A stretch of DNA of 38,970 nucleotides from Candidatus Dormiibacterota bacterium (lineage in GTDB: Bacteria; Vulcanimicrobiota; Vulcanimicrobiia; Vulcanimicrobiales; Vulcanimicrobiaceae): the NCBI GenBank assembly GCA_035532035.1, contig DATKRS010000023.1, positions 1 through 38,970 of the forward strand, in the 5' to 3' direction. The notes beneath the pieces are model-generated. The model was not told where the DNA came from, searched no databases, and saw only the letters and a program-made list of their open reading frames with translations. The position numbers and the translations under genes are program-made. This document shows positions 346 through 18,807 of this stretch, piece by piece; the first letter of the stretch is position 1; each line of letters opens with the position of its first letter.

Positions 346-346
346 G

Positions 347-583: not shown

Positions 584-834
584 GGGTTGAGCGGCGGGCG
601 CGTGCCTCGCAGCGACTCCGACAACTCGCGTGCTTCGCGCAGCGTTTCAGGAAGGCGCTCGGCGCTTCTCGCAAGCATCGCGGCCACGCCGGAGGCGGCA
701 ACGATGCCGGTGACGCCGACCAGAATGGCGGGAACGCCGCGTGCGTGGATCGGGCCGATGTGGATCTCGAAGCTCTCCTGAACACGCGCGATTCCTCGAA
801 AGATCGCCTTCAGAATGCGGCCGCGCTTTTTCAT
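580..834 (-). CDS. Small single-pass membrane protein, first gene of the bolA-grx operon
   Basis: An 84-residue protein with a basic N-terminus (MKKRGRILK), one predicted membrane helix at about residues 33-56 rich in Ala, Val and Gly, and a charged C-terminal helix (about 57-76) that could be amphipathic or coiled. No family is recognised. The ATG at 834 was chosen because residues before it, which lengthen the frame to 1248, run antisense through the oxidoreductase gene and look like a shadow. Its stop overlaps the bolA GTG by 4 bases, so it is the promoter-proximal gene of the operon. A role in anchoring the Fe-S pair at the membrane is only a guess from position. Confidence 0.7.
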   Translation of the reverse strand: MKKRGRILKAIFRGIARVQESFEIHIGPIHARGVPAILVGVTGIVAASGVAAMLARSAERLPETLREARELSESLRGTRPPLNP

Positions 835-900
835 AGGGAATGGCTCGTACGGCGCGGCGGTGGCGAAGGCCTGGCGTGCGCCGCGTCGTACCGGTCGGCC

Positions 901-2829: not shown

Positions 2830-3464
2830 CCGCCCTCGAGCGCACGCGGCAATGCGAAGCCGTCGCGCTCGGTGCCCTCGGCCAGCACCGTGAGAATGGG
2901 TTTCGTGCGCGCGAAGGCGAGCAGCTCGGCGACGCCGGGAAAGCCGCGCAGTCGCTCGAGGTGCTTGCGCGTCGGATAGATCATCCGAAGGTCTCCCGCG
3001 TCACTGCGCGCGAGCGCATCCGCCGGGGTCAGCCAGAGCCCGTCGTGCGTCTCCGTCGCATCCGCCACGGGCGTCTGCCCTTCGGGCATTCGCGCGACGA
3101 AGAAGAAGACGTCGTACCGTGGCGTGATGGCCGTGGGCGTGATCCAGCGCGAGAAGAGCTCCAGCGGCTCTGCGCCCGGCAGCCGGACTCCCGCCTCTTC
3201 CAAGAGTTCGCGCCGCGCTGCGGCGACGAGGCCCGCTTGAAGGTCGCGACCCGGCGGCGAGTCCATCCGAAAGAGCCGGCGCAGCTCTTCATGGCTCGTG
3301 CGTGCGCCGGCATCCCGGTCGGTCGCATCGACCGTGCCGCCGGGGAAGACGTAGACGTTGGGAGCAAACGCGCTCTTCTCGCTGCGCCGCAGCATGAAGA
3401 CCTCGATTCCGCGCGCGCTTGCCTCTCGTACCAGCATCACGGTGGACGCCGGGCGTACACTCAT
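2823..3464 (-). CDS. Nudix hydrolase, NUDT19-like
   Basis: A 213-residue Nudix protein. The Nudix box is split in the way known from NUDT19-type proteins: VFPGGTVD at about residue 43 begins it, a roughly 30-residue insert follows, and then comes the catalytic RRELLEEAGV helix near residue 87 with the Glu residues that bind metal. Members of that branch cleave CoA or acyl-CoA diphosphates. The start at 3464 (MSVRPASTVMLVR) fits the first strand of the domain; the longer open frame upstream is antisense to rpiB. The gene leads an operon with the overlapping MBL hydrolase and is divergent from rpiB by only 20 bases. A joint role with the MBL hydrolase in acyl-CoA turnover is inferred, not shown. 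Confidence 0.85.
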   Translation of the reverse strand: MSVRPASTVMLVREASARGIEVFMLRRSEKSAFAPNVYVFPGGTVDATDRDAGARTSHEELRRLFRMDSPPGRDLQAGLVAAARRELLEEAGVRLPGAEPLELFSRWITPTAITPRYDVFFFVARMPEGQTPVADATETHDGLWLTPADALARSDAGDLRMIYPTRKHLERLRGFPGVAELLAFARTKPILTVLAEGTERDGFALPRALEGGW

Positions 3465-3484
3465 TCCCGGCGAATACTCCTTCG

Positions 3485-3952
3485 ATGCGTATCGCCCTTG
3501 GAAGCGACCTGCGCTGCGAGCTGACCGACGCGCTCGAGCAGCGGCTGCGCGGGCGCGGCGACGATCTCGTGTTCTTCGGCGCACTCGACCCGAGCGCGCA
3601 GGCCGACTGGCCGAGCGTCGGCAGAGGCGTCGGTGAGGCGGTCGCGCGCGGCGCCTGCGCGAGCGGCATCGTCTGCTGCTGGACTGGAACCGGCGTCTCG
3701 ATCGCCGCGAACAAAGTACGCGGCGCACGCGCGGCGCTTTGCGGCGATGCGGAGACGGCTCGCGGGGCGCGTGTCTGGAACGACGCCAACGTCCTCGCGC
3801 TCTCGATCCGCTCGATTACGCCCGCGCTCGCCGACGAGATCCTCGCCGCCTGGTTTTCCGCCGCACCGGCCGAAGACGGCAAAGATAAACACGCGATCGC
3901 CACCCTCAAATCGTGGGACGAACAATTATCCGAAAAGCCGAGGAGGTCCTAA
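3485..3952 (+). CDS. rpiB: RpiB/LacA/LacB-family sugar-phosphate isomerase
   Basis: A 155-residue RpiB-type isomerase, likely interconverting ribose 5-phosphate and ribulose 5-phosphate in the pentose phosphate pathway. Family marks are the N-terminal MRIALGSDL, the VCCWTGTGVSIAANKVRGARAA core (about residues 61-82) holding the active-site Cys, and the NDANVLALSIR segment near residue 101. The family normally has an Asp-His pair after the first strand; here the residues are less typical (SDLRCEL), so another pentose or tetrose phosphate is possible. The ATG at 3485 gives the family N-terminus; no Shine-Dalgarno is visible before it, only AATACT six bases upstream of the ATG, which could be the -10 box of a leaderless transcript. 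Confidence 0.85.
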   Translation: MRIALGSDLRCELTDALEQRLRGRGDDLVFFGALDPSAQADWPSVGRGVGEAVARGACASGIVCCWTGTGVSIAANKVRGARAALCGDAETARGARVWNDANVLALSIRSITPALADEILAAWFSAAPAEDGKDKHAIATLKSWDEQLSEKPRRS

Positions 3953-4010
3953 CGAGCGAGGGGTGTCGCGTTGCGTCGAGGAAGCTCGGACCGGCGAGCG
4001 GAGGCGAGAT

Positions 4011-4045
4011 AAAAAGCAGAGAGGCTGCGCACACGCGTAGCCTCT
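4011..4045 (-). terminator. Intrinsic terminator
   Basis: An 11-bp stem (4020-4030 with 4035-4045, one G-U pair on the plus strand) with a 4-base loop is followed on the minus strand by CTGC and then five T residues (4015-4011). The T run is only on the minus strand, so it ends transcription coming from the VKOR-like gene and any RNA after it. As a stem it may also slow transcription from rpiB. Confidence 0.65.
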
Positions 4046-4154
4046 GGTCATCTGCCGTTACCGGGCCGCGGCTTTCTGTCGCACACTCGGCACGCTCTCC
4101 CGGGTGGTAACGCGAAGTTTTCCTCGCCCACTCAAGATTGCTGCATCGTAGCAA
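4011..4154 (-). ncRNA. Candidate structured RNA or structured 3' UTR
   Basis: Read on the minus strand, this stretch folds into a run of hairpins ending in a terminator. There is a 7-bp hairpin at 4138-4154, a GCGAGG/CUUCGC hairpin with an AAAA loop at 4112-4127, a long stem pairing 4106-4112 with 4056-4062 (7 bp) extended by 4099-4101 with 4063-4065, and the 11-bp terminator stem at 4020-4045. It starts 23 bases after the VKOR-like gene stop. No known riboswitch or RNA family was matched. It may be an independent small RNA or the 3' UTR of the upstream gene. Confidence 0.35.
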
Positions 4155-4177
4155 AGCCCGGCCGGACTCGCAAGGGG

Positions 4178-4576
4178 CTACCGGCTCCCGGCGTGCCACG
4201 CGTGGACCGCCCACAAGACGACAAGCGACCAGTTGATCGCATGCGATGTCCAGCAGTACGCGCACGATCGGCGAGTGACGAACAGCAGCGAGTACGCAAG
4301 CACGACCGACGTTCCCCCTGCGAGAACGACGAGAGCGAAGACCAACAGCGAAAGCTCCGGACGCAGCGGCAGCCATACCGCGACGGCGGCCGCCGGATAG
4401 TACCATGCGCCGAGCAACGCGTTCGAGACGCGCCCGAAGAGGTGGGCACGGGGCGTTTGGACCACGCTCGGCTCTGCGAGCCTGCCTCGCGCGGCCTGTC
4501 GAGCCTTTTCCAGCATGAAAAGCGATGCGTAGAGACCAACTCCGCAGAGTACCGTGACCAGCACCTCGACGATCAA
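4178..4576 (-). CDS. VKOR-like membrane protein with a single CxxC
   Basis: A 132-residue integral membrane protein with about four helices (roughly residues 3-21, 52-70, 73-95 and 106-125). The end carries CAYCWTSHAIN (Cys106 and Cys109), the redox CxxC of vitamin K epoxide reductase homologues, which reoxidise periplasmic disulfide carriers with quinone. FGRVSNALLGAWYY matches the VKOR half-helix region, but the loop cysteine pair that normally takes electrons from the partner is missing. It may be a reduced or different redox protein. The start is TTG at 4576 preceded by GGGAG. It lies head to head with the VTT gene, 12 bases apart. Confidence 0.7.
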   Translation of the reverse strand: MIVEVLVTVLCGVGLYASLFMLEKARQAARGRLAEPSVVQTPRAHLFGRVSNALLGAWYYPAAAVAVWLPLRPELSLLVFALVVLAGGTSVVLAYSLLFVTRRSCAYCWTSHAINWSLVVLWAVHAWHAGSR

Positions 4577-4588
4577 ACCGCGCTCCCT

Positions 4589-5230
4589 TTGAGTACTGCC
4601 GTTAGGCGGCTAGCCGCCATAGCGCTCCTCGGCGCCTCTTTCGTGCTCGCGGTCGTCGTCATCCGCTATCAACCGCTCGTCGAGCATCTGATCCGCTCCT
4701 ACTACCCCTTTGCCGTCCCCTTGGCGATCGGCGTCTTCGCGCTGGTCGCATCTGCACCGTTCTCGGTCACCGACGCGCTCGCGGTCATGAATGGAGCGAT
4801 CTTTGGACCCATTCGGGGGACCATCATCGATGCCATCGGGCTCGTCCTCGCGGGGTTGCTCGGCTACTGGATCAATCGGCACGCATCGCGTCTGCTCGAT
4901 CTCGACTCCTACTTGCAGCGGTTGCCTGCGTGGGTCAAGCGCTTCCCCGTCGGTTCCCCGGGCTTCCTCATCGCGGTGCGCATCATTCCGGGATTCGGCG
5001 GAACGGTCGCAACGGCAACCGCCGCAACCTTTCGCGTTCCGGTGTGGGTGCACGTCTGGACGATGTGTGCCGTCGCTATTCCCGTATGCGCGATCCTTTC
5101 GATCTTCGGCAATCAAGTAACGATCTACGTGCACCGCTACGAAGCGCGCGCGCGCACGTATCTCGAGCACCATCACCCGCATTTCAACTTCCACTTCAGG
5201 CATCGCGTTCCACCGACGAGCCAGCCGTGA
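4589..5230 (+). CDS. VTT-domain (TVP38/TMEM64, DedA-related) membrane protein
   Basis: A membrane protein of about 213 residues. It has an N-terminal helix (about 7-24) and the VTT core: the FALVASAPFSVTDALAVMNGAIFG region, the GYWINRHASR re-entrant part, the VRIIPGFGGTVATATAA segment near residue 140, and a last helix VWTMCAVAIPVCAILSIFG. Members of this family are linked to lipid scrambling or undecaprenyl-phosphate recycling. The C-terminus is His-rich (EHHHPHFNFHFRHR). No ATG or GTG fits; TTG at 4589 is the likeliest start, without a clear Shine-Dalgarno. The stop overlaps the rnd GTG, giving a coupled VTT-rnd-acnA run. Confidence 0.8.
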   Translation: MSTAVRRLAAIALLGASFVLAVVVIRYQPLVEHLIRSYYPFAVPLAIGVFALVASAPFSVTDALAVMNGAIFGPIRGTIIDAIGLVLAGLLGYWINRHASRLLDLDSYLQRLPAWVKRFPVGSPGFLIAVRIIPGFGGTVATATAATFRVPVWVHVWTMCAVAIPVCAILSIFGNQVTIYVHRYEARARTYLEHHHPHFNFHFRHRVPPTSQP

Positions 5231-6399
5231 CGGACGTCGCGATGGTCGCGAGCGCGCACGCGCTCGACGAGCTCTGCCGGCGCGTACGCGACGCGTCTCG
5301 CATCGCGCTCGACACCGAGTTCCACGCGGAGCGCACCTACGCGCCGCGGCTGATGGTGGTGCAGCTCGCGTTCGACGACGGGGTCGCGATCGTCGATCCC
5401 ATCGCCGTCGTGCACCTGCAACCGCTGGCGGAGGCGCTGACACAGACCGAGGTCGTCGGCCACGCGCTCTCGTCCGATCTCAAGATCTTTGCCGACCGCT
5501 TCGACCGCGTGCCGGAGCGCGTCTTCGACACGCAAGTGGCGGCGGCGTTTCTCGGCTACGGCATGCAGGTGTCGCTCGCGGAGCTCGTGCGCGATCTGCG
5601 CGACGTCCGGCTTGCAAAGTCGCAGACCGTCAGCGATTGGGGCGCGCGCCCGCTCTCGCCGCGTCAAATCGAGTATTTGGTCGATGACGTCGCTCATCTC
5701 TTGCCGATGCAGGACGCGCTCGTCGAGCGGTTGCGTTCGGCGGGGCGTCTCGAGTGGGTGCGCGAGGAGTGCGCGCAGCTCGGTCAACTCGAGCGCTATC
5801 GAATCGACGAGCGGCGCGCGTATCTGCGCATACCCGGTGCATCGCGGATGAGCCGGCGCGAGCTTGCAGTGTTGAGCGCGCTCGTGAAGATGCGCGACGG
5901 GTTTGCGCGGCGGCGCGACGTTCCTCCACGCTACATCATTCCCGACGACGTGCTTGCGGGGTTGGCAACGCTACGCCCCACGAGCGCCGACGACCTCGCG
6001 CAACTGCGTCGTTTGGATGCGGCCGCGCGCCGGCAGCACGGGGCGGCGATTCTCGAGGCTGTCGCTGCGGCGGCGGCGCTGCCCGAGGAAGAACTTCCCG
6101 AACGGCCGAGCCGTCCGCTCGGGACCGCGCGCGACACGCTCGCTGCGCTCATGAGCATCGTCGTCGGCGAGATCGCACGCAGGCACGATCTCGCGCCGAG
6201 TCTTCTCGTTCCTCGTGCGTCGCTCGAACGCGTATCGCGCGAGCTTCCGCGCGACGCGCGCGCCCTCGAAGAGGCGCTGAACCTCTCGGCGTGGCGATTG
6301 GAACTCGTCGAGCAGCCGCTGCAGCGGCTGCTTTGGGGCGAGGCCTCGATCGTCGTCGAAGGCTACGCCGACGGTGACCCGAACATACGGGTGCGATGA
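5227..6399 (+). CDS. rnd: Ribonuclease D
   Basis: A 390-residue DEDDy 3'-5' exoribonuclease of the RNase D type, used in the family for tRNA and small RNA 3' trimming. Visible catalytic motifs are DTEF (about residue 28), [10 protein letters not shown] (about 78-87) and [10 protein letters not shown] (about 152-161, with the motif Tyr and Asp). [15 protein letters not shown] segment precedes the last motif as in Rnd. Helical HRDC-like regions follow at about 195-280 and 310-375. The GTG at 5227 overlaps the VTT stop (GTGA); ATG 5242 is an alternative. The stop overlaps acnA as ATGA. Length matches the family. Confidence 0.92.
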
Positions 6400-9176
6400 G
6401 CGAACAGGTCGGGAGTTTTGGCGCAGCCGCAACGCTAGCGGTTGGAGATCGACGCTATCGCTACTTCCGCTTAGCGGCGCTCGAAGAAGCGGGACTGACG
6501 AATCTCGCGCGGCTTCCGTATTCGATCAAGATCCTTCTGGAAAACCTGCTCCGCTACGAGGACGGCAGGACCGTGAAGCGCGACGACGTCGAAGCGCTGG
6601 CGCTCTGGACTCCGGCGCCGCTGGACCGCGAGATCGCGTTTCGGCCGGCGCGCGTTCTGCTGCAAGATTTCACCGGCGTTCCCTGCGTCGTCGATCTGGC
6701 TGCGATGCGCGACGCCATATCGGCGATGGGCGGCGATGCGAAAACGATCAATCCGCTGCAGCCGGTCGAACTCGTGATCGATCACTCCGTGCAGGTCGAC
6801 TTCTTCCGCGGCCCGGAAGCATTCGCGAAGAACGCTGCGCTCGAGCTCGAGCGCAATCGCGAGCGGTACGCATTTCTCAAGTGGGGCCAGGCTGCGCTAT
6901 CGGGATTTCGCGTCGTGCCGCCCGACACCGGCATCGTGCACCAGGTCAACATCGAGTATCTCGCGCGTGTGGTCTTCGGTGAGGGTGGTGGCGGGCTTAC
7001 GGCCGATCCTTCGGGGGCTCTCGCCTATCCCGATACGCTGGTTGGGACGGATTCGCACACGACGATGGTCGACGGACTCGGCGTGCTGGCATGGGGCGTC
7101 GGCGGCATTGAAGCGGAGGCGGCGATGCTCGGCCAGCCCGTCACGATGCTTATCCCGCGCGTCGTCGGCGTGCGGCTCGACGGAGCGCTGCGCGAAGGCG
7201 TCACCGCGACGGATCTCGTCCTGACCGTAACGCAGATGCTGCGCAAGCGCGGCGTCGTGGGAACGTTCGTCGAGTTCTTCGGTAGAGGATTGAGCTCGAT
7301 GCCCGTTGCGGATCGGGTGACGATCGGAAATATGTCGCCGGAGTTCGGCTGCACGGTCTCGATGTTTCCTATCGACGATCGCACGCTCGAGTACCTTCGC
7401 TTCACCGGGCGTTCGCCGGAGCACGTGGCGCTCGTCGAAGCATACGCGAAGGCGCAGAGTCTTTTCCGCACGGATGCGACGCCCGATCCGCACTACAGCG
7501 ACGTGCTGGAGCTCGACCTCTCCAGCGTCGAGCCGAATATCGCCGGCCCGCGCCGCCCGCAGGACCGCGTGCCGCTGCGTGACGCGAAGCGCGCCTTCGC
7601 GACGGCAATGGCCGAATTGTCGAAAGCGCGTAACGGCAACGGCAACGCGGTCGGAAGGTTCGAGGGCGAAGGCGGCGGGCAGACGGCGGCCATCGGGGAG
7701 ATCGAAGCCGACGCCGACGGGCAGAGCGTTCCGGAAGAGGCGGCGAAGGATGTCTCCGACGGCGCCGTGGTGATCGCCGCGATCACCAGCTGTACGAACA
7801 CCTCCAACCCCTCGGTGCTGATCGGCGCGGGGCTTCTCGCGCGCAACGCGGTCGAGCGCGGCTTGCAGACGAAACCATGGGTCAAGACGTCGCTCGCACC
7901 GGGGTCGCAAGTCGTCACCGACTACCTCACCAAAGCCGGTTTACAACAGTACCTGGACGCGCTCGGCTTCGATCTCGTCGGCTACGGATGCACGACGTGC
8001 ATCGGCAACTCGGGCCCGCTGCCTGCAGAGGTTGCCGACAAAGTCGAAGAGCACGATCTCATCGTCGCGGCGGTGCTCTCCGGTAACAGGAACTTCGAAG
8101 GGCGCATCCACCCTCAAGTGCGCGCGAACTATCTTGCGTCGCCGCCGCTCGTCGTCGCGTACGCGCTGGCGGGGCGAATGGACGTCGATCTCACGACGGA
8201 GCCGCTAGGCATCGGGAGGGAAGGGCCGGTGTACTTGCGCGACATCTGGCCGAGCAACGAGGAGATCGCGCAGACCGTGACCGCGTGCATTACGGACCAA
8301 ATGTTCAAGCGGCGTTACGCCGACGTTTTCAAAGGCGACGAGAACTGGGCGAAGATTCCCGTCGGCAAGAGCGAGCGCTTCTCATGGGACCCGGCGTCCG
8401 AGTACGTGAAACGACCGCCCTACTTCGACGGTATGCAAGCCGAGCCGCCCGCGACCGCCGACGTCAGAAACGCGCGCGTCTTGGCGATGCTCGGAGATTC
8501 GGTCACGACGGACCATATCTCTCCGGCGGGAAATATCGCGCGCACCAGTCCTGCCGGCACGTACCTCATGGAACGCGGGATCGAGCAGAAGGATTTCAAC
8601 TCGTACGGCGCGCGGCGCGGAAACCACGAGGTGATGGTGCGCGGTACGTTTGCGAACGTGCGACTGCGCAATCTGCTCGTACCGGGCGTCGAAGGCGGCA
8701 TGACGCGCTACCTTCCGACCGGCGACCAGATGACGATCTATGACGCGGCGATGAAGTACCGCGCGGGCGGTACGCCGCTCATCGTGCTCGCGGGAAAGGA
8801 GTACGGCTCGGGCTCGTCGCGGGACTGGGCTGCGAAAGGCCCGTATCTGCTCGGCATCAAGGCCGTCATCGCCGAGTCGTTCGAGCGCATCCATCGCAGC
8901 AATCTCATCGGTATGGGTATCCTGCCGCTCGAATATCTCGATGAAGCGAACCGCGACGCCTACGGTCTCACCGGAGAAGAGCTGTACGACATCACCGGGA
9001 TCGAACGCGGCATCTCACCGCGCATGACCGTAAACGTCACCACGACGCATCCACACAGCGGTCAATCGTGCACGTTCGACGTCCGGCTGCGCATCGATAC
9101 TCCCGACGAAGCCGAGTACTACCGCCACGGCGGTATCTTGCAGTACATGCTCCGGCAACTCATGAGCCGGCGGTGA
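6396..9176 (+). CDS. acnA: Aconitate hydratase AcnA
   Basis: A 926-residue aconitase of the AcnA/IRP1 type, converting citrate to isocitrate through cis-aconitate in the TCA cycle. The [4Fe-4S] ligands are Cys466 in TSCTNTSNP and Cys532 and Cys535 in YGCTTCIG; the 66 and 3 residue spacing is that of E. coli Acn[43 protein letters not shown] and [17 protein letters not shown] cover the substrate-binding and swivel-domain signatures. About 50 residues near 405-455 are Gly, Ala and Glu rich and look like a variable linker. The ATG lies inside the rnd stop (ATGA), so translation is probably coupled. Family proteins can also bind mRNA when they lose the cluster. Confidence 0.98.
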
Positions 9177-9221
9177 TTCGGTAGCGCTCTTTGCAAACGC
9201 GCTTGCATGTATCGGTGCGTC

Positions 9222-9237
9222 GCGCAACCCCTTGCGC
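9222..9237. terminator. Stem-loop between convergent acnA and secretin genes
   Basis: GCGCAA and TTGCGC form a 6-bp perfect stem around a CCCC loop, 46 bases after the acnA stop and 77 before the secretin stop. No T run follows on either strand, so it is a weak or Rho-assisted stop at best. Nothing else was seen in the 137-base gap 9177-9313. Confidence 0.3.
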
Positions 9238-9313
9238 CACAAGCCTTTGCGGAGCATCGGCCGCTGTACGCCAAGGGTCGGTTGCTCGGTGCCACGACAA
9301 TCGGGTCCGCCGC

Positions 9314-10831
9314 TTAGGGGTGTGGCGAAGCCGTGACGCTTGGGGCCGCGTCCGTGCGTTGTCTGATGATATGCGGCGTCACCACGATGTAGAGATTGGT
9401 CCGCGCGGTCGAATCGCGCCGCACGCGAAACAATCCACCGATGATGGGCAGGTCGCCGAGGATCGGGAGCTTGGACATATTCCTGATCTCGTTGTCCTGC
9501 AGCAACCCGGCGATCACGAACGGGCTGCCGTCCTGTACCAACGCTTCAGTGCTTGCGCGACGCAGACTGATTTGGGGTACGTTCCCCTCGGGCGTCGGAA
9601 CGTATGCGGCGACGCTGGAAACTTCCGCGTAAATATAGGAAAGAACCTGATTGTCTCCGCTGATCCGTGGGAGTATCTGGAGGTTGATTCCGACGGTTAC
9701 GTATGTGGTTGAGACCTGCGTTATGGCCGTGGAACCGGGATAGATCGTCGACTGAATGATCGGAATCGCATCGCCCGCAAGGATTTGGGCCGGCGTTCCG
9801 TCGAGCGCGAGTATCCGCGGCGTCGCGAGAATCTTGCCTCCACCGTGGGCGATGGTCGCGTAGAGCTGGCCTTCGAGCGACACGGCCGTCTGCGTGTTCC
9901 CGGTGCCGCCGGTCAAGGCACCGGCGGTGTTTCCAAACACTACGCTTGCCTGCGCAATGGGGCCGCCTGCGCCAGCCGCTAGATCGAGCCCAAGGTCGTG
10001 TGCCGATGACTCGGTTAGCTCAACGATCTGGCAATCGAGCATCACGCTGTCCAGCGGAACATCGATCTGAGAAACCAGCGATTTTATCGATGCGATCTCA
10101 TCGGGTGGCCCAGACAAGATGAGCGCATTGAGGCGGCGGTCGACGGCGATCGTGTCTGTGACGCGTTCGGCACGGGCTGATGCGGCAACCCCGACTGACA
10201 TATCGTTTGCCCCGGTCGCTCCTCCCATTCCCAAGCCCGAAGTCGGGAGCGAGAACATCGAGCCCGAGGGGTGAAAATTATCGGTCGGCTGCAGTTGTTG
10301 TCCCTGCACCAGGATGTCGGCGATCTCGCTGACGTCCGCGTACTTCAGCGGTATCACCGTGTAGCTCAACGCGGCTAGCGGCGCAGTGGGAGCCGCCGGC
10401 ACCGCTGCCTGCGCTACGGCCCTGGGTTGCGAGCCGATGAGCAACACGAGCGCCGATGGAAGGGCTTGAGTCGTGACCGGCTCAGCGCCGGTAAGCCGAA
10501 ATAAAACCCTCAGAGCGCGATTTGCGCTTGCTATCGCGATCGACTCGACTGGGCTGCTTCGAATCGCCGGTGCCGACGTGAAGTCGATTCCCTTCGCCGT
10601 CTCTGGTAACACGGCAGTGACGCTGTCCGTACCGGAGCCCTCCAAGTGCCAGCCGGCCGGAACACCGCCGGGAAAGAACATCACGACGCGCGCGCTGCTG
10701 ACCGATGCTATTTCTCGTACGGAACTCAGAATCGCACGCGCGTCGGCGGAGCCTGAGGCAAGGACGGCCATCGCGACGGTTACGCATGCCGCCGGGAGCC
10801 ATCGCCCTGTCCACGGGTGCTTCGCGGGCAC
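9314..10831 (-). CDS. Orphan PilQ/GspD-type secretin
   Basis: A 505-residue outer-membrane secretin. A signal peptide (about 1-31, ending SADA) is followed by an AMIN-like domain (about 33-135), a Pro/Ala linker, an N1 (secretin_N) domain at about 150-255 with VDRRLNALILSGPPDEIASI, and the secretin channel domain at about 265-490. The signature end is present: PFVIAGLLQDNEI, SKLPILGDLPIIGGLF and NLYIVVTPHII. Secretins form large gated rings that pass pili, enzymes or phage. No pilus, pseudopilin or ATPase genes are in the window. GTG at 10831 touches the stop of the serpin-like gene (TAGTG). It is the last gene of a four-gene operon of exported proteins, which points to a dedicated partner set. 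Confidence 0.9.
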   Translation of the reverse strand: MPAKHPWTGRWLPAACVTVAMAVLASGSADARAILSSVREIASVSSARVVMFFPGGVPAGWHLEGSGTDSVTAVLPETAKGIDFTSAPAIRSSPVESIAIASANRALRVLFRLTGAEPVTTQALPSALVLLIGSQPRAVAQAAVPAAPTAPLAALSYTVIPLKYADVSEIADILVQGQQLQPTDNFHPSGSMFSLPTSGLGMGGATGANDMSVGVAASARAERVTDTIAVDRRLNALILSGPPDEIASIKSLVSQIDVPLDSVMLDCQIVELTESSAHDLGLDLAAGAGGPIAQASVVFGNTAGALTGGTGNTQTAVSLEGQLYATIAHGGGKILATPRILALDGTPAQILAGDAIPIIQSTIYPGSTAITQVSTTYVTVGINLQILPRISGDNQVLSYIYAEVSSVAAYVPTPEGNVPQISLRRASTEALVQDGSPFVIAGLLQDNEIRNMSKLPILGDLPIIGGLFRVRRDSTARTNLYIVVTPHIIRQRTDAAPSVTASPHP

Positions 10832-11799
10832 TACTCAGCATTCAGCGTCGGGTGCGCGACGTAACCTACGAAGAGCAGCGCGTGCGCGCTCCAGTAGACG
10901 ATTGCGAAATAGAACGGATGGTTGAACGACGCGGTAACCGGCGGGCAATTGCCTTCCATCGCCTCGCGCCTCGGGCAATTCGTCGGAGAAAAAGCGGCGT
11001 TGGTCAGCGGAGGCCAGTCCCAGGCCCGCCCCACACCATGCTCGTTGACACGGATGACCGACGTCTGCTCCAGCGGAACCCGGCGCGTTGCCCGGATCAC
11101 TGAGGTCCCGATGGTAGTCGTTAATGCGAACACGGGCAGTTGGAGTCGCACTTCGCGCAGATTCCTCAGTCGGTACATGTCTCCAGCCCCCGGAATTGCG
11201 ACTAGTTGCTCGACGACGTTGCGGACAGACCCAAGTGATGGCGTTCCGGGAAAGAGCAAGAAACCGTAACGAGCATCGCGGCAGTGCAGTTCGATCACCA
11301 TGATGCCGGCAACGTTTTCAATCATGGTGAGCGCACTCAGCCGCATCGTTGGAACGCTGTACCTGGGGCCATAGCCGTAGAAGGGCGCCGGAGACGTAGG
11401 AGCGACGGGTCCCACATAGAGCCACGCGTCGTTGAAGGTGCCGATGGCTTTGACCGTGGGTTCGCCCTTCGAGCGACGATCAAGAAAGCGACAGTTCTGG
11501 CCAAACCCTGCGTCGGGCCGGCGTAGCCCTAAGAAGGAGAGGTCGCTGACGAAGACCCTTATGCCCGGTGCGAGGTAGGCATCCTTACAGGCTGCGGCGG
11601 TTGTCAGCGCGAGCGCCGCCGTATCGAGCGCAGCCGCCGCTTCATTATCCATGACGACATTGTAAACGGCATTGCGATGTTCTCGTGCTGCAATTGCCAA
11701 TTTGCTCCATACATCCGAGGCTGGAACGGCCGCACCGGACGGCGATGCGCCAGCGACAACGCCCAGCAGCGCCACAAGCCACAGATTTCTCAGCCTCAT
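10831..11799 (-). CDS. Secreted divergent serpin-family protein
   Basis: A 322-residue exported protein (signal peptide about 1-23) whose second half reads as a serpin. In order: VPTMRLSALTM, then IMVIELHCRDARYGFLLFPG (strand pair and ELPY-type loop), LREVRLQLPVFAL (the LPrF strand), SVIRVNEHG at about 247-255 (the VNEEG before the reactive loop), and NHPFYFAI (293-300) with LLFVGYVAHP at 308-317, the serpin signature. Serpins trap serine or cysteine proteases. The hinge, normally GTEAAAAT, reads GVGRAWDWPP, and the N-terminal helical half is about 90 residues short, so a non-inhibitory role is likely. Four-base overlap with the upstream lipoprotein gene. Fold call is fairly sure; activity is not. 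Confidence 0.72.
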   Translation of the reverse strand: MRLRNLWLVALLGVVAGASPSGAAVPASDVWSKLAIAAREHRNAVYNVVMDNEAAAALDTAALALTTAAACKDAYLAPGIRVFVSDLSFLGLRRPDAGFGQNCRFLDRRSKGEPTVKAIGTFNDAWLYVGPVAPTSPAPFYGYGPRYSVPTMRLSALTMIENVAGIMVIELHCRDARYGFLLFPGTPSLGSVRNVVEQLVAIPGAGDMYRLRNLREVRLQLPVFALTTTIGTSVIRATRRVPLEQTSVIRVNEHGVGRAWDWPPLTNAAFSPTNCPRREAMEGNCPPVTASFNHPFYFAIVYWSAHALLFVGYVAHPTLNAE

Positions 11800-13607
11800 T
11801 GTTCCGTCGTCGATCCCAGTATCTGCCCGGTATAGGCGTCGACCGCAATTTGTTCGCGCCCTCCGATCGTGAATATCCAGGCGGACCGAGCGCCTTCACT
11901 TGAAGAGGCGTTAGCGTCGGGCATCCACAGCCCAGGCTGATAGGCTGTGATGTTTGCGCCTGCAGGCAGTGCGCTTGCGGCGGTTATGGCATCAATAGAG
12001 GTTGTTCCCGCGGGTTGGATATTCGAGTTCGTACCCGTGAACGAGCGCCACAGGCGAAAGGCAGAGGAGATGTATGGCGTATCGCTGGTGGTCACTTGCC
12101 ATTGCTCGCATACAGGCTTTATCGGCGGATCATTGTAAATCCATTGTACGCACGTCTTCGTTGTAAGATGACGATCCGCGACCACGACCTTGATCCCGTC
12201 GTACCCCGCAACCGAACTGTCCGCGTGGTGCCAGATGAATTCGTAGCCATCGTTGACCGCGGCGCCCGTCGAGGGAGAATACGCCCAGAACTGGAGAACA
12301 GAATACAGCACAGCATCCGATGGCATTCCGAGGGTGCTGCTGATGTAGGTTTCCGCAGCTTGCAGCGCCGTACTCTGAGAAAAAGCAATCGGATCGCGCG
12401 GCTTTGGCCCAACGTACATCACCGCGCCCGACTGGCCATAATTGTATTGCACCCCTCCCCAGTTCGTCTTCGAGACGTAGGTCGACCCGTTATCGGAGTT
12501 GACAACGGGAGAGACGGCTTGCGACTCGTACTGCTGTGCCAGCGACCGTGCGTTCCATGATTCGTTCGTCACCGACTGGGGATTGAGCGCGAAAGTAGTG
12601 GGCGCAACTGTAACGCTTTGCACGTTGTAGCCGTTCGGATTGGCCGGATAGTAGAATATGATGCTGCCGCTTAAGAACGAGGTGTAGGACGGAGGGGCGC
12701 TCCCGTCACCCGGGCCGCTGATGATATCGTTTCGCGCCGATGCATCCTCCCATATCGCCCAGCGGCCATCCTGCCCGGCGTCCATGAAGGCGCAAACCCA
12801 TGCGTCGTGGATATCCTGTCCCTCCACCTGAGTGCCGTTGAGTTCACCCGGTACGATGAGTAGCGAAAAGTCAAGAGCTGTCGGCGAGTTCGTGAAGTCG
12901 CAGTTCCGCGTGCTTGTGCCTTGAGCCGTGCATGACCCCGGTGATTGCCAAGCCCCGTACAGCCCGTGCAGCGAGCCACCGAAGATCGATCGCCAGTCCG
13001 CCGTCCACTGGGGATTCGCCGGGTCCACGCCGCTCGGCGCTGCGACGGTGTCGGAGCCCGGATCGAATATCCACTTTAGCCTGCCTTGAATCGGAAAGCT
13101 CAATCCCGTATAGCCCGTGGTTCCGGCACAGCCAACGGTCCCCCCGTTCTCAGCGGTAAGTCCTCCATTGTCACCCACGCCCCACCATTGTTGGTCCGGT
13201 CCGTAGCCACCCGTGTTGAAGCCATAGAGATCGTCGATCCCGACCCAGCCGTGGCCGCGGTAGAATAAGACGTCCGCGCTCTGCTGGTACGCCTGGAAAG
13301 AGGTCGCACAGACTTGCGCATCGGTAAGACGAGCGAGCTGCGCCCAATCGGTAAATGTATTGCCCTTCATTTCGCGTGCAAAATTGTCTACGTCGCCTAT
13401 GGGGTCATATCCGTGCTGGACGCTGTAGGGGTCTCCCAGATCGATCGCGGGGTTCGCGTAGTTGTCGATGGCAAGCGTCACGAAGCTGCCTGCGAATTGC
13501 TTCGGCTGGGGTGGGAAGAGTATATTCAGGAGCGAGTCGACGTTGCAGGCCGCGAGCACAACCGCGAGCGTGCTGAGTACAAGGGTCGTTTTCGTCTTCC
13601 TCAACAT
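11796..13607 (-). CDS. Large lipoprotein, DUF6345-like
   Basis: A 603-residue probable lipoprotein: basic start, hydrophobic stretch, and lipobox LAAC with Cys21. The N-terminal part (about 40-330) has a DVLFYRGHGWVG motif near residue 112 and several Cys and many Trp, Gly and Asn residues; the His-Gly-His-Gly pattern recalls DUF6345 proteins and caspase-like folds, which is an impression only. The C-terminal part (about 400-603) ends with AWIFTIGGREQIAVDAYTG, a PepSY-like strand and D-x-x-T-G turn. It may be a surface-held enzyme or binding protein. The ATG overlaps the preceding gene's stop by 7 bases and its own stop overlaps the serpin ATG. Function unknown. Confidence 0.7.
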   Translation of the reverse strand: MLRKTKTTLVLSTLAVVLAACNVDSLLNILFPPQPKQFAGSFVTLAIDNYANPAIDLGDPYSVQHGYDPIGDVDNFAREMKGNTFTDWAQLARLTDAQVCATSFQAYQQSADVLFYRGHGWVGIDDLYGFNTGGYGPDQQWWGVGDNGGLTAENGGTVGCAGTTGYTGLSFPIQGRLKWIFDPGSDTVAAPSGVDPANPQWTADWRSIFGGSLHGLYGAWQSPGSCTAQGTSTRNCDFTNSPTALDFSLLIVPGELNGTQVEGQDIHDAWVCAFMDAGQDGRWAIWEDASARNDIISGPGDGSAPPSYTSFLSGSIIFYYPANPNGYNVQSVTVAPTTFALNPQSVTNESWNARSLAQQYESQAVSPVVNSDNGSTYVSKTNWGGVQYNYGQSGAVMYVGPKPRDPIAFSQSTALQAAETYISSTLGMPSDAVLYSVLQFWAYSPSTGAAVNDGYEFIWHHADSSVAGYDGIKVVVADRHLTTKTCVQWIYNDPPIKPVCEQWQVTTSDTPYISSAFRLWRSFTGTNSNIQPAGTTSIDAITAASALPAGANITAYQPGLWMPDANASSSEGARSAWIFTIGGREQIAVDAYTGQILGSTTEQ

Positions 13608-14206
13608 GCGCTCATGCTCCGCGGGAGATTGGCGGCGCTGCTCTGCACTGGCGTCGCGAGTATCGCCGCCTCCGATGAGAGGACACCGGTCGTAGCGTCA
13701 TAGTAAAAAGTGAAGACGTACGGATACAGCGTGCAGTCTTGGTCGTCGTAGCGACCCATGCCGATTTCCTGGATTATGATCTGGTTTGCAGTCGGAGCTG
13801 GAGTCGCGGGCGATGCGCTAATTGTATGCCGCGCACCGAGAGGCATTCGGACGAACCTATTGCCTCGTGGTGCCGCGATGTTTCCGAAAAACGGCTTGGG
13901 CCGCGGAAGGCTGCGCCAGGCATGTGCGCTGAGGCGCGCCGGTCGTGCCAGCGCACGCCTGACGGTCAAGGTTTCGCTCGTGCTCGGCGATTGGAGGCTG
14001 CGGCCGTTGATTGCCCTCGCTCCGTGTGCGCCTTGCGAGCCGAGACGGATATCCTCCATGATTCTTTCGGCGGCGTCGACGTACAAGTACGCCTTCGTCA
14101 CGTGCGTATGCGTGAATCGTGGATAGATCATGTGCCTCGCCGCCGCTGGCGCTGCCGATGCACCGAGAAAATACGCTAGAACCACGACAGGCGCAAAGAA
14201 CTTCAT
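13601..14206 (-). CDS. Secreted protein of unknown function, first gene of the secretin operon
   Basis: A 201-residue exported protein with a signal peptide at about 1-23 (ending PAAAR). The middle is rich in Arg, Pro, Ser and Ala and looks disordered. The C-terminal part (about 140-190) is better ordered: QIIIQEIGMGRY, a Cys, YPYVFTFYYDATTGVLSSEA. The D-x-x-T-G-x-L ending resembles the end of the next gene's product, as if both carry a PepSY-like strand-turn. No family is recognised. GGAGGG six bases before the ATG at 14206 is a good ribosome site. It leads the operon and is divergent from the luxR-type gene with 207 bases between. Confidence 0.7.
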   Translation of the reverse strand: MKFFAPVVVLAYFLGASAAPAAARHMIYPRFTHTHVTKAYLYVDAAERIMEDIRLGSQGAHGARAINGRSLQSPSTSETLTVRRALARPARLSAHAWRSLPRPKPFFGNIAAPRGNRFVRMPLGARHTISASPATPAPTANQIIIQEIGMGRYDDQDCTLYPYVFTFYYDATTGVLSSEAAILATPVQSSAANLPRSMSAC

Positions 14207-14260
14207 GGAATGCCCTCCGCCTGAAAGTCTAGCGGAACGCGGAGGCGCGCGCTATTCTTC

Positions 14261-14316
14261 CAATCGCCTATGCCCTTCGGCTTACGCGCAATCGCCTAGG
14301 CCGGATGGCATAGAAT
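14261..14316. promoter_or_regulatory. Direct repeats and -10 box between luxR-type gene and secretin operon
   Basis: CAATCGCCTA occurs at 14261-14270 and again at 14289-14298, 28 bases apart; both copies continue as NGCC. A dyad pairs CTATGCC (14267-14273) with GGCATAG (14307-14313). TAGAAT at 14311-14316 fits a plus-strand -10 box for the luxR-type gene, with no good -35, as at activator-dependent promoters. TAGACT on the minus strand (14227-14232) could serve the secretin operon. These repeats are a candidate operator for the neighbouring regulator. Confidence 0.45.
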
Positions 14317-14388
14317 TTGGGCGGCGTTGCGGGGTCAGAACCGCAAGGCGACCGCGGCGAGGCGGAATTGGGGGCAGGGGAGGGGATA

Positions 14389-14398
14389 CCCCCCCCCC
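14389..14398 (+). repeat. C10 homopolymer in the leader of the luxR-type gene
   Basis: Ten C residues sit 15 bases before the ATG of the luxR-type gene, just after three G runs (5, 4 and 4 G residues) that can pair with them. A TTGCGG/CCGCAA hairpin (14327-14346) lies further up the leader. Such tracts change length by slippage, which here would change the leader fold and the distance to the ribosome site, not the reading frame. Confidence 0.6.
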
Positions 14399-14413
14399 GA
14401 AGGTGTGCTACAA

Positions 14414-14719
14414 ATGGAGCAGCCGGCTCAGGTGACGGCAGTTTCAGCGCTTCCAGAGCGCGCCAACTCAGACCGCGTCCGCGGCCTCACTCACCGCGAA
14501 AGCGAAGTTTTTCGTCTCGTCCTCAAGGGTTACCACAACGAGCGCATCGCGCGCGAACTGGACGTAGCTGTGGGTACCGTGAAAGCACACCTGAGAAGAA
14601 TATTCGCCCACTTCCGCGTTAACGGACGCTTGGAACTGATGGCGAAGTTCGGCCTTTCGTTCGCCGACGTGCTCCAAAGTCAAGACGCGAGCGCAGGCTC
14701 GCCGGACGATGCCGGGTGA
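14414..14719 (+). CDS. Small LuxR/NarL-type DNA-binding regulator
   Basis: A 101-residue protein that is essentially one GerE/LuxR helix-turn-helix. LTHRESEVFRLVLKGYHNERIA and VAVGTVKAHLRRIFAHFRVNGR (about residues 24-70) carry the family pattern, including the Glu of the first helix, the GYHNERIA turn and the TVKAHL recognition helix. No receiver or sensor domain is present. The ATG at 14414 is preceded by GAAGGTG; the frame opens upstream to 14327 but that part holds the G/C tracts and is non-coding in look. Divergence from the secretin operon and the repeats between them suggest it controls that operon and perhaps itself. Confidence 0.85.
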   Translation: MEQPAQVTAVSALPERANSDRVRGLTHRESEVFRLVLKGYHNERIARELDVAVGTVKAHLRRIFAHFRVNGRLELMAKFGLSFADVLQSQDASAGSPDDAG

Positions 14720-14836
14720 ATAGCCCCTTCACCCTCGCGCTCGCGTCGTGCCTCTCATTACCACAACGGCTTACCGCGCAATCGCACGGCAACAACGTCT
14801 TCCTCTCTCGCCGGTGAGCGTCGGTCGCTACAGCGC

Positions 14837-16105
14837 TTAGAGCATCACCCGGCGGAAGTCGGCGAGCGCGTTCGCGACATAGACGAGAAAGCGCGCCGCG
14901 CTCGCTCCGTCGATGACGCGGTGGTCGTAGCTGACGCTGATCGGTAAGACCAATCGCGCGACGAAGCGCTTCTTATTCCAAACGGGTTTCATCGCCGCGC
15001 GCGTCGCGCCGAGGATCGCGACCTCGGGGGCATTGACGATCTGGGTGAACTGCGTGCCGCCGATGCCGCCGATCGACGAGATGGTGAACGAGCCGCCGCT
15101 CATTTCGGCCAGGTTGAGCTTCCCTTCCCGCGCTTTCGTCGCGAGCTCCGCGGCCTCGGCCGCGATCTCGAGCAGCCCCTTTGCGTCGGCGTTCTTGAGA
15201 ACGGGAACGACGAGCCCGTCCTTCGTGTCGGCGGCGAAGCCGATGTTGTAGTAGTGCTTGTAGACGAGCTGGTCGCCGTCGAGCGAGCTGTTGAACTCGG
15301 GGAACTCCTTGAGCGCTGCAACGCACGCCCGCACGAGAAAGGCGAGCATCGTGAGCTTCGCGCGTTTTTTCTTGGCTTGTTCCGCGTTGATTTTCACGCG
15401 GAACTTTTCGAGCCCGGTCACGTCCGCTTCGTCGTAGTTCGTGATGTGCGGAATCTGCAGCCAGTTGCGATGGAGATTCGGCCCCGCGATGCGCCGAATG
15501 CGCGAGAGCGGCTTGCGTTCGATTGGCCCGTAGCGGGCGAAATCGACCGCCGGCCATGGTGGAAGACCGGCGCCGATGCCGCCAGTGCCCGCGGTGCCGG
15601 CGAGTGCGGCTTTGACGAAGCCTTGCACGTCCTCGCGGCTGATGCGGCCATGCGGCCCCGTTCCGGAGAGCGCGTGCACGTCCACGCCGAGCTCGCGCGC
15701 GAAACGCCGGATCGATGGGCTCGCGTGAACGATTGCGCCGTTGCCGGATCGCGTCGCCGATGGCGGCTGAGGCTGGGGCGCAGGCGCTGCTTGCGGTTGT
15801 GGCGCAGGTGCTGCTTGCGGTTGTGGCGCAGGCGCTGCTTGCGGCTGAGGCGGCGCTTGTGCCGCGGCTGGCGCGATCGTCGCAATGACCGTGCCCTGCG
15901 AGACGGAGTCGCCGACTTTGACGTTGACTTGTGCGATCGTTCCCTCGGCCGGCGACGGGATCTCCATCGACGCCTTTTCGCTCTCGAGCGTGATCAGCGA
16001 ATCGTTCTGCTTGACGCGCTGACCGGGCTTGACGAGCACTTCGATCACCGGCACATCTTTGAAGTTGCCGATGTCGGGAACGCGCAGCTCGACCGTCTCC
16101 GCCAT
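14837..16105 (-). CDS. aceF: Dihydrolipoamide acetyltransferase, PDH E2
   Basis: The 422-residue E2 core of pyruvate dehydrogenase, moving acetyl groups from E1 to CoA. A lipoyl domain (1-78) carries Lys44 in LESEKASME. A Pro/Ala/Gln linker follows (about 80-115) with a repeated QAAPAPQP unit. The E1/E3-binding domain is at about 128-165 (ASPSIRRFARELGVD, GRISREDV). The catalytic domain (about 195-422) ends with SYDHRVIDG, holding His395 and Asp399. One lipoyl domain is fewer than the three of E. coli. The ATG is 5 bases after the aceE stop, one operon. No lpd gene is in the window. Nothing notable is seen in the 117 bases between this gene and the luxR-type gene. Confidence 0.96.
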   Translation of the reverse strand: MAETVELRVPDIGNFKDVPVIEVLVKPGQRVKQNDSLITLESEKASMEIPSPAEGTIAQVNVKVGDSVSQGTVIATIAPAAAQAPPQPQAAPAPQPQAAPAPQPQAAPAPQPQPPSATRSGNGAIVHASPSIRRFARELGVDVHALSGTGPHGRISREDVQGFVKAALAGTAGTGGIGAGLPPWPAVDFARYGPIERKPLSRIRRIAGPNLHRNWLQIPHITNYDEADVTGLEKFRVKINAEQAKKKRAKLTMLAFLVRACVAALKEFPEFNSSLDGDQLVYKHYYNIGFAADTKDGLVVPVLKNADAKGLLEIAAEAAELATKAREGKLNLAEMSGGSFTISSIGGIGGTQFTQIVNAPEVAILGATRAAMKPVWNKKRFVARLVLPISVSYDHRVIDGASAARFLVYVANALADFRRVML

Positions 16106-16110
16106 GCGCC

Positions 16111-18807
16111 CTACACCGTGACCGGATTGGGTTTTTCGGGATCGATATCGTACTTCACGAGCGCCTTTGCGGGCGCGTCGCGCGAAACGGCGCCCTCGTC
16201 AGCGAGCGCGCTCAGTGCGGCGAGCGCGACGTAGCGGCGATCCACTTCGAAGAAGGCGCGAAGCTGCTTGCGGTAATCGCTGCGGCCGTACCCGTCGGTG
16301 CCGAGCGTCGCGTAGCGCCGCGTTGCGGAGCCGGCTGACGTGACGAACGGGCGAATCTGCTCGGCGAACGTGCGCACGTAATCGCTGGCCGCAATACCCG
16401 GCCCAGTGCGCCCTTCCAGGCATTGCTCGACGTACGAGCGCTTCGGTGGCTCGCCCGGATGCAGCATGTTCCACCGCTGCGCGGCCACGCCGTCGCGCTG
16501 CAGCAGGTTGAAGCTCGTCGTGCTCCACACGTCGCTGCGGACGCTCCAGTCTTTCTCGAGCAGCTCCGCGCCGGCGAGCACTTCGCGCAAGATCGCGCCG
16601 GAGCCGAAGAGCTGCACGCGCGGCTCGTTTCCCGCTCCACCGTCGCGCAGCAGATACATGCCGCGCAGAATCCCTTCGAGCGCGTTCTGGGGCATCTCCG
16701 GATGGTGGTAGTTCTCGTTGAGCAAGGTGATGTAGTAATACACGTCCTCCTGCTCGGCGAGCATGCGCCGCAGGCCGTCTTGGATGATGACCGCCACCTC
16801 GTAGCCGAACGTCGGATCGTAGCTGCGGCAGTTCGGAACGACCGATGCGATGACGTGGCTCTGCCCGTCTTCGTGCTGCAAGCCCTCACCGTTGAGCGTC
16901 GTTCGGCCCGACGTGCCGCCGAGCAGGAAACCGCGCGTACGGCTGTCGCCTGCCGCCCACGCGAGATCTCCTACCCGTTGAAATCCGAACATCGAGTAGA
17001 AGATGTAGAACGGGATCATCGGGAGGTTGTGATTGGAGTACGACGTGCCGGCTGCAATCCACGACGAGATCGCGCCGGCTTCGTTGATGCCCTCCTGCAG
17101 AATCTGGCCGAGCCGGTCCTCACGATACCACATGAGCTGTTCGGCGTCTTGCGGCTGATAGAGCTGGCCGACGGACGAGTAGATCCCGAGCTGCCGGAAG
17201 AGACCCTCCATGCCGAACGTGCGCGATTCGTCTGCGACGATCGGAACGACGCGCGGCCCGATCGTGGGGTCGCGTACGATGGCGCTCAGGATACGCACGA
17301 ACGCCATCGTGGTGGAATGTTCGCGCTCAGCGCCGCTCTTGACTTGCGCATCGAAGGCGCTCAGCGCCGGCACGGTCAGCGCGACCGACGTCCGGCGCCG
17401 CTGCGGCAGCGATCCCCGGTCGTGCATGCGCGCGCGCAGGTAGTGCATCTCCGCGCTGCCCTCGGGCGGGCGGCAGAATGGAATGCTCTCGATCTGCTCG
17501 TCGGTGACCGGTATGTCGAAGCGATCTCGGAAAGCGCGCAGATCGTCGACGCCCATCTTCTTGGCTTGATGGGCGATGTTCTGGGCTTCGCCCGCGCCGC
17601 CCATTCCGTAGCCTTTGATCGTCTTAGCGAGGATGACCACGGGCGAACCGCGATGCTCGAACGCGGCTCGGTACGCAGCGTAGATCTTCGCGGGATCGTG
17701 ACCGCCGCGCTGAAGCGCCCAGATTTGATCGTCGTTCCAGTCGGCGACCAGCGCCGCCGTCTCCGGATACCGGCCGAAGAACTTCTCACGCACGAATCGT
17801 CCGTTACGCGACTTGAACGTCTGATAGTCGCCGTCGACGCACTCGTCCATGAGCTGCACGAGCCGGCCGGTCGTATCGGCCGCGAGCAGCGGATCCCAGT
17901 TGCTTCCCCAAATGACCTTGATCACTCTCCAGCCGTTGCCGCGGAAAACGCGCTCGAGTTCTTGGATGATCTTGCCGTTGCCGCGAACCGGACCGTCGAG
18001 GCGCTGCAGATTGCAGTTCACGACCCAGATGAGGTTGTCGAGGTGCTCGCGTCCCGCGAGCGAGAGCGAGCCGAGCGATTCCGGCTCGTCCATCTCTCCG
18101 TCGCCGAGGAAGGCCCAGACTTTGCGATCGCTCGTTGCGATGAGCCCGCGGTCGTTGAGATAGCGCATGAAGCGCGCCTGCGCGATCGACATGATTGCGC
18201 CGAGGCCCATCGAGACCGTCGGATACTGCCAGAACGCGGGCATCAGCCACGGATGCGGATACGAAGAGAGTCCCTTTCCGTCAACCTCGCGCCGAAAGTG
18301 CTCGAGCTGCTCTTCAGCGATTCGACCTTCGAGGAACGCGCGTGCGTAGATGCCTGGGGAAGAATGCCCTTGGTAGAAGATCATGTCGCCGCCGAAACCA
18401 TCGGTTCCGTCCGGACCAGGCTCGGCCGGCGCGCGGAAAAAGTGGCTCTGCCCGATGTCGAACAACGTCGCTGCGGAAGCGAACGTTGCAACGTGCCCAC
18501 CGAGCTCCGAGCTCAGCTTGTTGGCGCGCACGACCATGGCGAGCGCGTTCCAGCGCACGTAGTGGCGCAAGCGCGCTTCGATCGCTCGGTCGCCGGGAAA
18601 CGGCGCCTGCTGGTCCGGCGGAATCGTGTTGACGTAGGGCGTCTCGACGCCGATAGAGACGTGCGCGCCGCCCTTCCACGCCTCGTCGACGATCCGGTGG
18701 ATCAGCTCGCGCGCGCGCTCCGGCCCCTCGGCGGCGAGCACGCCGCGCATCGCATCTACCCATTCTTGGGTCTCTTGTGGATCGGGATCCGACCGCTGCA
18801 TCGCCAT
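16111..18807 (-). CDS. aceE: Pyruvate dehydrogenase E1, homodimeric type
   Basis: An 898-residue single-chain E1 that decarboxylates pyruvate with TPP. The TPP motif is GDGEMDEPES with Gly235-Asp236-Gly237 and the Asn pair in VVNCNLQRLDG about 26 residues on. YINTIP-like YVNTIPPDQQ, ELGGHVATFASAATLFDIG and GQGHSS-type FYQGHSSPGIYARAFLEGR match E. coli AceE along its length. The start at 18807 (MAMQRSDPDPQETQEW) aligns with the family; the frame stays open to 18945 but that part overlaps the thiC riboswitch leader and has no family match. ATG at 18801 is an alternative. Followed closely by aceF. Back to back with thiC, which makes the precursor of its cofactor. Confidence 0.96.
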   Translation of the reverse strand: MAMQRSDPDPQETQEWVDAMRGVLAAEGPERARELIHRIVDEAWKGGAHVSIGVETPYVNTIPPDQQAPFPGDRAIEARLRHYVRWNALAMVVRANKLSSELGGHVATFASAATLFDIGQSHFFRAPAEPGPDGTDGFGGDMIFYQGHSSPGIYARAFLEGRIAEEQLEHFRREVDGKGLSSYPHPWLMPAFWQYPTVSMGLGAIMSIAQARFMRYLNDRGLIATSDRKVWAFLGDGEMDEPESLGSLSLAGREHLDNLIWVVNCNLQRLDGPVRGNGKIIQELERVFRGNGWRVIKVIWGSNWDPLLAADTTGRLVQLMDECVDGDYQTFKSRNGRFVREKFFGRYPETAALVADWNDDQIWALQRGGHDPAKIYAAYRAAFEHRGSPVVILAKTIKGYGMGGAGEAQNIAHQAKKMGVDDLRAFRDRFDIPVTDEQIESIPFCRPPEGSAEMHYLRARMHDRGSLPQRRRTSVALTVPALSAFDAQVKSGAEREHSTTMAFVRILSAIVRDPTIGPRVVPIVADESRTFGMEGLFRQLGIYSSVGQLYQPQDAEQLMWYREDRLGQILQEGINEAGAISSWIAAGTSYSNHNLPMIPFYIFYSMFGFQRVGDLAWAAGDSRTRGFLLGGTSGRTTLNGEGLQHEDGQSHVIASVVPNCRSYDPTFGYEVAVIIQDGLRRMLAEQEDVYYYITLLNENYHHPEMPQNALEGILRGMYLLRDGGAGNEPRVQLFGSGAILREVLAGAELLEKDWSVRSDVWSTTSFNLLQRDGVAAQRWNMLHPGEPPKRSYVEQCLEGRTGPGIAASDYVRTFAEQIRPFVTSAGSATRRYATLGTDGYGRSDYRKQLRAFFEVDRRYVALAALSALADEGAVSRDAPAKALVKYDIDPEKPNPVTV

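Follow-up and report, generated by a model that had tools for sequence, protein, structure and literature searches.

In the window, the whole 38,970-nucleotide stretch of DNA that we analysed, from an uncultured soil-type bacterium of the phylum Eremiobacterota, a secretin is encoded at the end of a four-gene module whose other products are exported proteins, one of them with a predicted caspase-like peptidase fold and another related to serpins. The secretin is an orphan at its locus, yet related machines exist in the same genome. Related bacteria show the same pairing, and in other bacteria relatives of the secretin adjoin secreted proteases. These findings suggest an undescribed system of small size for the export or control of peptidase-like proteins on the cell surface. 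We regard the module as real and found no description of it, while its mechanism is inferred. The features are as follows.

9177..14836, no strand assigned: lineage-specific insert between aconitase and PDH-E2 that holds the operon and an HTH gene (empty junction in relatives)
9314..10831, minus strand: gene 4, secretin (505 aa), with PF00263 and PF03958 matches and below all type-specific cut-offs
9362..9847, minus strand: secretin domain, residues 329-490 of gene 4 (PF00263)
10831..11799, minus strand: gene 3, exported reduced serpin-like protein (322 aa; PF00079, 32.3 bits)
11796..13607, minus strand: gene 2, lipoprotein (603 aa), predicted caspase-fold and YpeB/PepSY-like parts (ORF, lipobox, AF2 model with VIA-align)
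11802..12620, minus strand: YpeB/PepSY-like C-terminal half of gene 2, residues 330-602 (5boi and 5coz matches)
12705..13499, minus strand: predicted caspase-fold domain of gene 2, residues 37-301 (structure matches of the model)
13053..13055, minus strand: Ser185 at the catalytic Cys position, Ser in 12/12 homologues (homologue alignment)
13251..13253, minus strand: His119 (GHG), catalytic His column, 12/12 (homologue alignment)
13601..14206, minus strand: gene 1, small exported protein (201 aa; ORF, conserved C-terminal hairpin YVFTFYYDATTGVL)
14414..14719, plus strand: small LuxR-type HTH gene, divergent from the operon (PF00196, 52.3 bits on a longer ORF from 14327)

A preliminary description of this DNA had reported a minus-strand quartet with overlaps of 7, 4, and 1 bp and an export signal on each product, and the ORF coordinates and our reading by eye agree with both claims. 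Signal peptides were recognized on genes 1, 3, and 4, and gene 2 carries a lipobox (VVLAAC, LAA-C21) with Cys21 as the putative lipidation site of an outer membrane-type lipoprotein. Relative to the sister-species copy C12, dN/dS was 0.34, 0.17, 0.26, and 0.15 for genes 1 to 4, respectively; all four are under purifying selection. These values, together with the same gene order and the same 7-bp and 1-bp overlaps in G116, indicate that the quartet is more than a chance arrangement. None of the four genes matched the PADLOC defence-system library. Open-access literature searches (with noisy word-start matching) for orphan bacterial secretins, secretins with sedolisins, and Eremiobacterota secretins returned no paper.

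The assignments of gene 4 as a secretin and gene 3 as serpin-like were borne out by profile searches. Gene 4 scored 135.8 bits with PF00263 (cut-off 27.5), which places it in the secretin superfamily, and 47.8 bits with PF03958 (Secretin_N). Its best NCBIfam matches were GspD of the type II secretion system (T2SS) and PilQ of the type IV pilus, with which it shares the secretin fold and the Secretin_N domain; however, it reached only 187 bits against the GspD equivalog cut-off of 351 and 158 bits against the PilQ cut-off of 284. It scored 106.5 bits with the type III SctC equivalog (cut-off 238.5). The protein also differs from GspD and PilQ in its length of ~500 aa, in forming part of its own clade, and in its neighbours, which are exported peptidase-fold proteins instead of GspC/E/F/G or PilM-P. 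The T2SS-T3SS_pil_N domain, present in the secretin of the C32 Tad locus, is missing here, and the protein does not class with the Tad secretins CpaC/RcpA. Genes of the gspC/E/F/G type were found neither in the window gene list nor near the gene-2-linked secretins of relatives. No pilus, T2SS, or T3SS genes were seen among the predicted genes of the window, as the preliminary description had stated for the surroundings of the secretin.

The host genome (2.25 Mb, 96% complete) contains four secretin hits, namely the window gene, its C12 counterpart, C35, and C32. C35 is a pilus/T2SS-type locus with its own secretin, two T2SSE ATPases, T2SSF, and a pilin-type protein, while the C32 Tad locus combines its own secretin with RcpC/CpaB, two T2SSF proteins, and T2SSE. 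The proposed search for pilus/T2SS ATPase genes elsewhere in the genome thus found them, but in machines separate from the operon. In a tree of 57 secretins, the gene-2-linked sequences grouped in one clade (90/92), distinct from the Tad and pilus/T2SS-type secretins; one linked secretin (G126:C7) fell outside this clade, which also includes three partial cases (G020, G018, and G030). Since the C35 and C32 loci own their secretins and the window secretin belongs to a different clade, the latter is not a stray PilQ or GspD.

To describe gene 2, we relied on an AF2 model whose mean pLDDT was only 63. VIA-align matched its residues 37-301 to SAVED-CHAT (Z 14.4), gingipain R (13.4), MALT1 (12.4), and caspases (~11), with separase also among the clan CD matches (overall Z 11-14), so that the model places this domain in the caspase-hemoglobinase fold. 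The His-Cys dyad of clan CD is incomplete, as His119 is kept and the Cys position is occupied by Ser185. Ser was found in 12/12 secretin-linked homologues, whereas two canonical DUF6345 proteins from the phylum have Cys there. Window gene 2 gave no match with PF19872 (DUF6345), but its G116 homologue scored 41.5 bits (gathering score 26.9), a sequence-level result that supports the assignment independently of the structure model. Gene 2 resembles the DUF6345 proteins of clan CD in its conserved His and predicted caspase fold, and differs from them in the Ser at the nucleophile position, in a PepSY-like part that is C-terminal rather than N-terminal, and in its linkage to a secretin. A whole-database scan found no relative of gene 2, an NCBIfam search of its homologues found nothing, and an open-access search for DUF6345 returned no paper.

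Residues 330-602 of the same model matched 5boi (YpeB; Z 11.2, rmsd 8.8) and 5coz (Z 11.2). Foldseek also ranked 5boi as the top match, with a weaker result than VIA-align. This half resembles the PepSY domain of YpeB from the YpeB/SleB spore cortex hydrolase pair; according to one report, YpeB may keep its enzyme SleB inactive (PMC13393411). In contrast to that pair, gene 2 fuses the regulatory and the enzyme-like parts into one lipoprotein.

Gene 3 exceeds the PF00079 cut-off of 27 and belongs to the serpin superfamily. Over its last two thirds it can be aligned with the full serpin that adjoins gene 2 in G115 (profile-profile E 9e-7 over 191 columns), and this G115 protein scored 223.7 bits. 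Read by eye, the window hinge VNEHGVGRAWDWPPL lacks the small residues at P12-P9 of the inhibitory consensus, while the G115 hinge VNERGAQTAVAS appears intact. Gene 3 is a reduced, probably non-inhibitory serpin, and suicide inhibition is unlikely given its hinge. An AF2 model built from 5 sequences had a mean pLDDT of 39 and was unusable. Viral CrmA is a serpin that inhibits caspases. The window recalls it in that a serpin relative, full-length in G115, is encoded beside a caspase-fold protein; it differs in its reduced serpin and in a hinge without the small residues needed for insertion.

The second copy, C12, provided a comparison at the level of alleles. Positions 1-17499 of C12 (L006) are collinear with window positions 1-17525, and both begin with an identical 141-bp prefix, likely an assembly k-mer. 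C12 carries the same genes at ~95% identity to the species G003 and ~88% to the window; for aconitase alone, the values are 94.8% and 88.7%, respectively. From this collinearity, the common prefix, and the closer identity to G003, we rejected a paralogous second operon of one genome. C12 is most likely a sister-species (G003-like) contig binned into the MAG, and could therefore be used as an independent allele. Between the two alleles, dS reached saturation in two segments only, the first half of gene 2 and the serpin core; gene 1, the rest of gene 2, and the secretin had values of 0.1-0.9. This confinement points to the caspase domain and the serpin core as swapped or hypervariable cassettes.

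The operon lies in an insert of 5,660 bp. Aconitase and PDH-E2 abut (10-17 bp) in the same-genus genomes G001, G004, and G007, and GC content is 0.605 in the operon versus 0.656 in the flanks. The lower GC is consistent with acquisition. The junction itself is variable (L165, L170), with a different small membrane-protein gene there in G002 and G005. The LuxR-type HTH gene is kept in C12 (dN/dS 0.30) and is a candidate local regulator.

A search of 149 genomes of the phylum Eremiobacterota revealed full-length gene 2 at 11 loci (C12 counted), 10 of which have an adjacent secretin, although each genome encodes only ~3 secretins. The gene order proposed for such a search is kept in G116 (gene 1-gene 2-serpin-secretin, followed by an S8 subtilase). 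Shorter or altered versions are gene 1-gene 2-secretin in G036, the same followed by a beta-lactamase-family hydrolase in G126 (which has a second copy in reversed order), and gene 2-lipoprotein-secretin in G091, G093, and G095, with an SGNH-type hydrolase next in G091 and G095. In G095 (L112:3-10867) the gene 2-lipoprotein-secretin-SGNH operon occurs twice in tandem. Gene 1 homologues directly precede gene 2 in G036, G116, G091, G126 (twice; after it in G126:C7), G095, G115, G030, and G122. Two genomes lack an adjacent secretin: G115 has gene 1-gene 2-serpin with an exported protein without family matches, and G020 a gene 2 remnant with a serpin.

The encoded proteins belong together. The possibility that the secretin is an ordinary PilQ split from a pilus locus, with the other genes occurring away from secretins, failed on both points, given the separate secretin of C35 and the adjacency of gene 2 to a secretin at 10/11 loci. 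An orphan secretin with partner genes, as first described, is thus separate from the pilus and Tad machineries of the genome, and the genes upstream of it are genuine partners conserved along with it. The serpin did not hold up as a constant part, being swapped for a lipoprotein or missing in most relatives and lacking an inhibitory hinge in the window. The suggestion of protease control gained support: the predicted caspase fold and YpeB/PepSY-like half of gene 2, and the subtilase or secretin-sedolisin pairs of relatives, speak for it.

Outside the phylum, the closest secretins come from Alphaproteobacteria. Of 18 such loci with upstream sequence, 16 have an exported peptidase-like gene immediately before the secretin, although these 18 loci represent one clade and not independent events. 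Eleven of the 16 genes are sedolisin-like (kumamolisin E 3e-25), three are Phi_1, and two belong to a further family with an HELxE-like motif; an NCBIfam search of these peptidases found nothing. The sedolisin/kumamolisin (S53) loci share with the window a homologous orphan secretin behind an exported peptidase, but genes 1 and 2 and the serpin are absent from them. The pairing of a sedolisin with a secretin seems to be a general arrangement that is as yet undescribed. In G153, the sole T2SSE-family ATPase adjoins the only other secretin, in an order that resembles a Tad locus; a separate T2SS/T4P motor was therefore not found in this genome, a MAG in which absence is not proof.

The recurrent finding of a stand-alone secretin encoded next to a single exported peptidase-fold protein, whose family differs from case to case, led us to favour a self-contained outer membrane module, in which the secretin is a dedicated conduit for co-encoded peptidase-fold clients and their regulators; we put its probability at roughly 0.5. 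The ring would serve the co-encoded exported proteins, above all lipidated gene 2, outside any pilus or T2SS. The role of the YpeB/PepSY-like half and of gene 3 would be to restrain, chaperone, or regulate the peptidase-fold domain before it is displayed or released, and gene 1 would be an accessory factor of gene 2. Energy may be dispensed with or borrowed from the pilus/Tad ATPases of the cell. We infer that gene 2 crosses, or is presented through, the ring and that the serpin and PepSY parts regulate it. Adjacency alone does not demonstrate client passage, and gene 2 with a serpin but without an adjacent secretin in G115 and G020 counts against the conduit. So does the observation that, in Eremiobacterota, roughly half of the family to which this secretin belongs lacks an evident peptidase neighbour and lies beside the SUF operon or in an unrelated housekeeping-type neighbourhood. 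Lipidated gene 2 might also stay on the inner leaflet, and the T2SSE ATPases present in all of the Eremiobacterota genomes tested could drive the ring.

Alternatively, the upstream proteins could help to assemble, pilot, or gate the ring, with a lipoprotein as pilot and a serpin-like protein as plug, and the ring itself would serve the pilus/Tad machines or some unrelated cargo. Like pilotins, gene 2 and the replacement proteins of other relatives are lipoproteins, and pilus-type and other T2SSE ATPases were present in 6/6 Eremiobacterota genomes tested. We nevertheless consider this unlikely: known pilotins are small, whereas gene 2 is 600 aa with a predicted caspase fold, the window secretin stops ~15 residues past the barrel motif and so leaves no room for an S-domain, and the pilus/T2SS-type and Tad loci own their secretins. 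The allelic replacement pattern confined to the caspase domain and serpin core, the lower-GC insertion at a variable site, and the tandem copies of G095 would instead suit a surface recognition or conflict system, whose hypervariable parts bind or process foreign proteins (phage, predator, or competitor) with the secretin as the exit. With no PADLOC match, only two alleles compared, and no immunity or effector gene identified, such a system seems rather improbable. Least credible is a spare GspD/PilQ-type secretin in a chance operon. The GspD and PilQ scores fit it, as does the finding that most phylum relatives carry such a secretin without gene 2, but the scores are far below the cut-offs, gene order is kept across genera, and the association is clade-wise.

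The dedicated-conduit reading could tentatively be widened to a minimal export or display class in Eremiobacterota and Alphaproteobacteria, in which a stand-alone secretin without its own type II/IV machinery would have one co-encoded peptidase-fold client (caspase fold, sedolisin, or Phi_1 type); in the window branch this client would be caspase-fold, with a conserved Ser-His for Cys-His and a serpin alongside. The established view is that secretins form the outer rings of large machines. If true, a conserved secretin clade travelling with exported peptidase-fold proteins, in place of pilus or T2SS parts, would mean that a secretin can be a small dedicated exit, an idea that could be tested in Novosphingobium isolates amenable to culture. 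With a Ser where caspases have Cys and a serpin relative as its neighbour, the gene 2 family also raises the question of a bacterial serine-type caspase-fold enzyme or a serpin-regulated pseudo-caspase.

Several neighbouring genes were recorded in passing. An exported sedolisin-like or Phi_1 gene precedes the secretin at loci L127, L130-L140, L142, and L144. At L128:5133-6404 and L136:5182-6432, an exported family with an SHELAEW(L/M)DDP motif lies ahead of the secretin; the Phi_1 proteins carry a similar HELEE..DP motif, which is possibly metallopeptidase-like. A TPR-LuxR regulator is encoded upstream of the G116 operon (L106:10853-12388), where the window has just the short divergent LuxR-type HTH gene, and a protein that appeared CHASE2-TIR-like by eye downstream of the G036 operon copy (L042:12254-14191).
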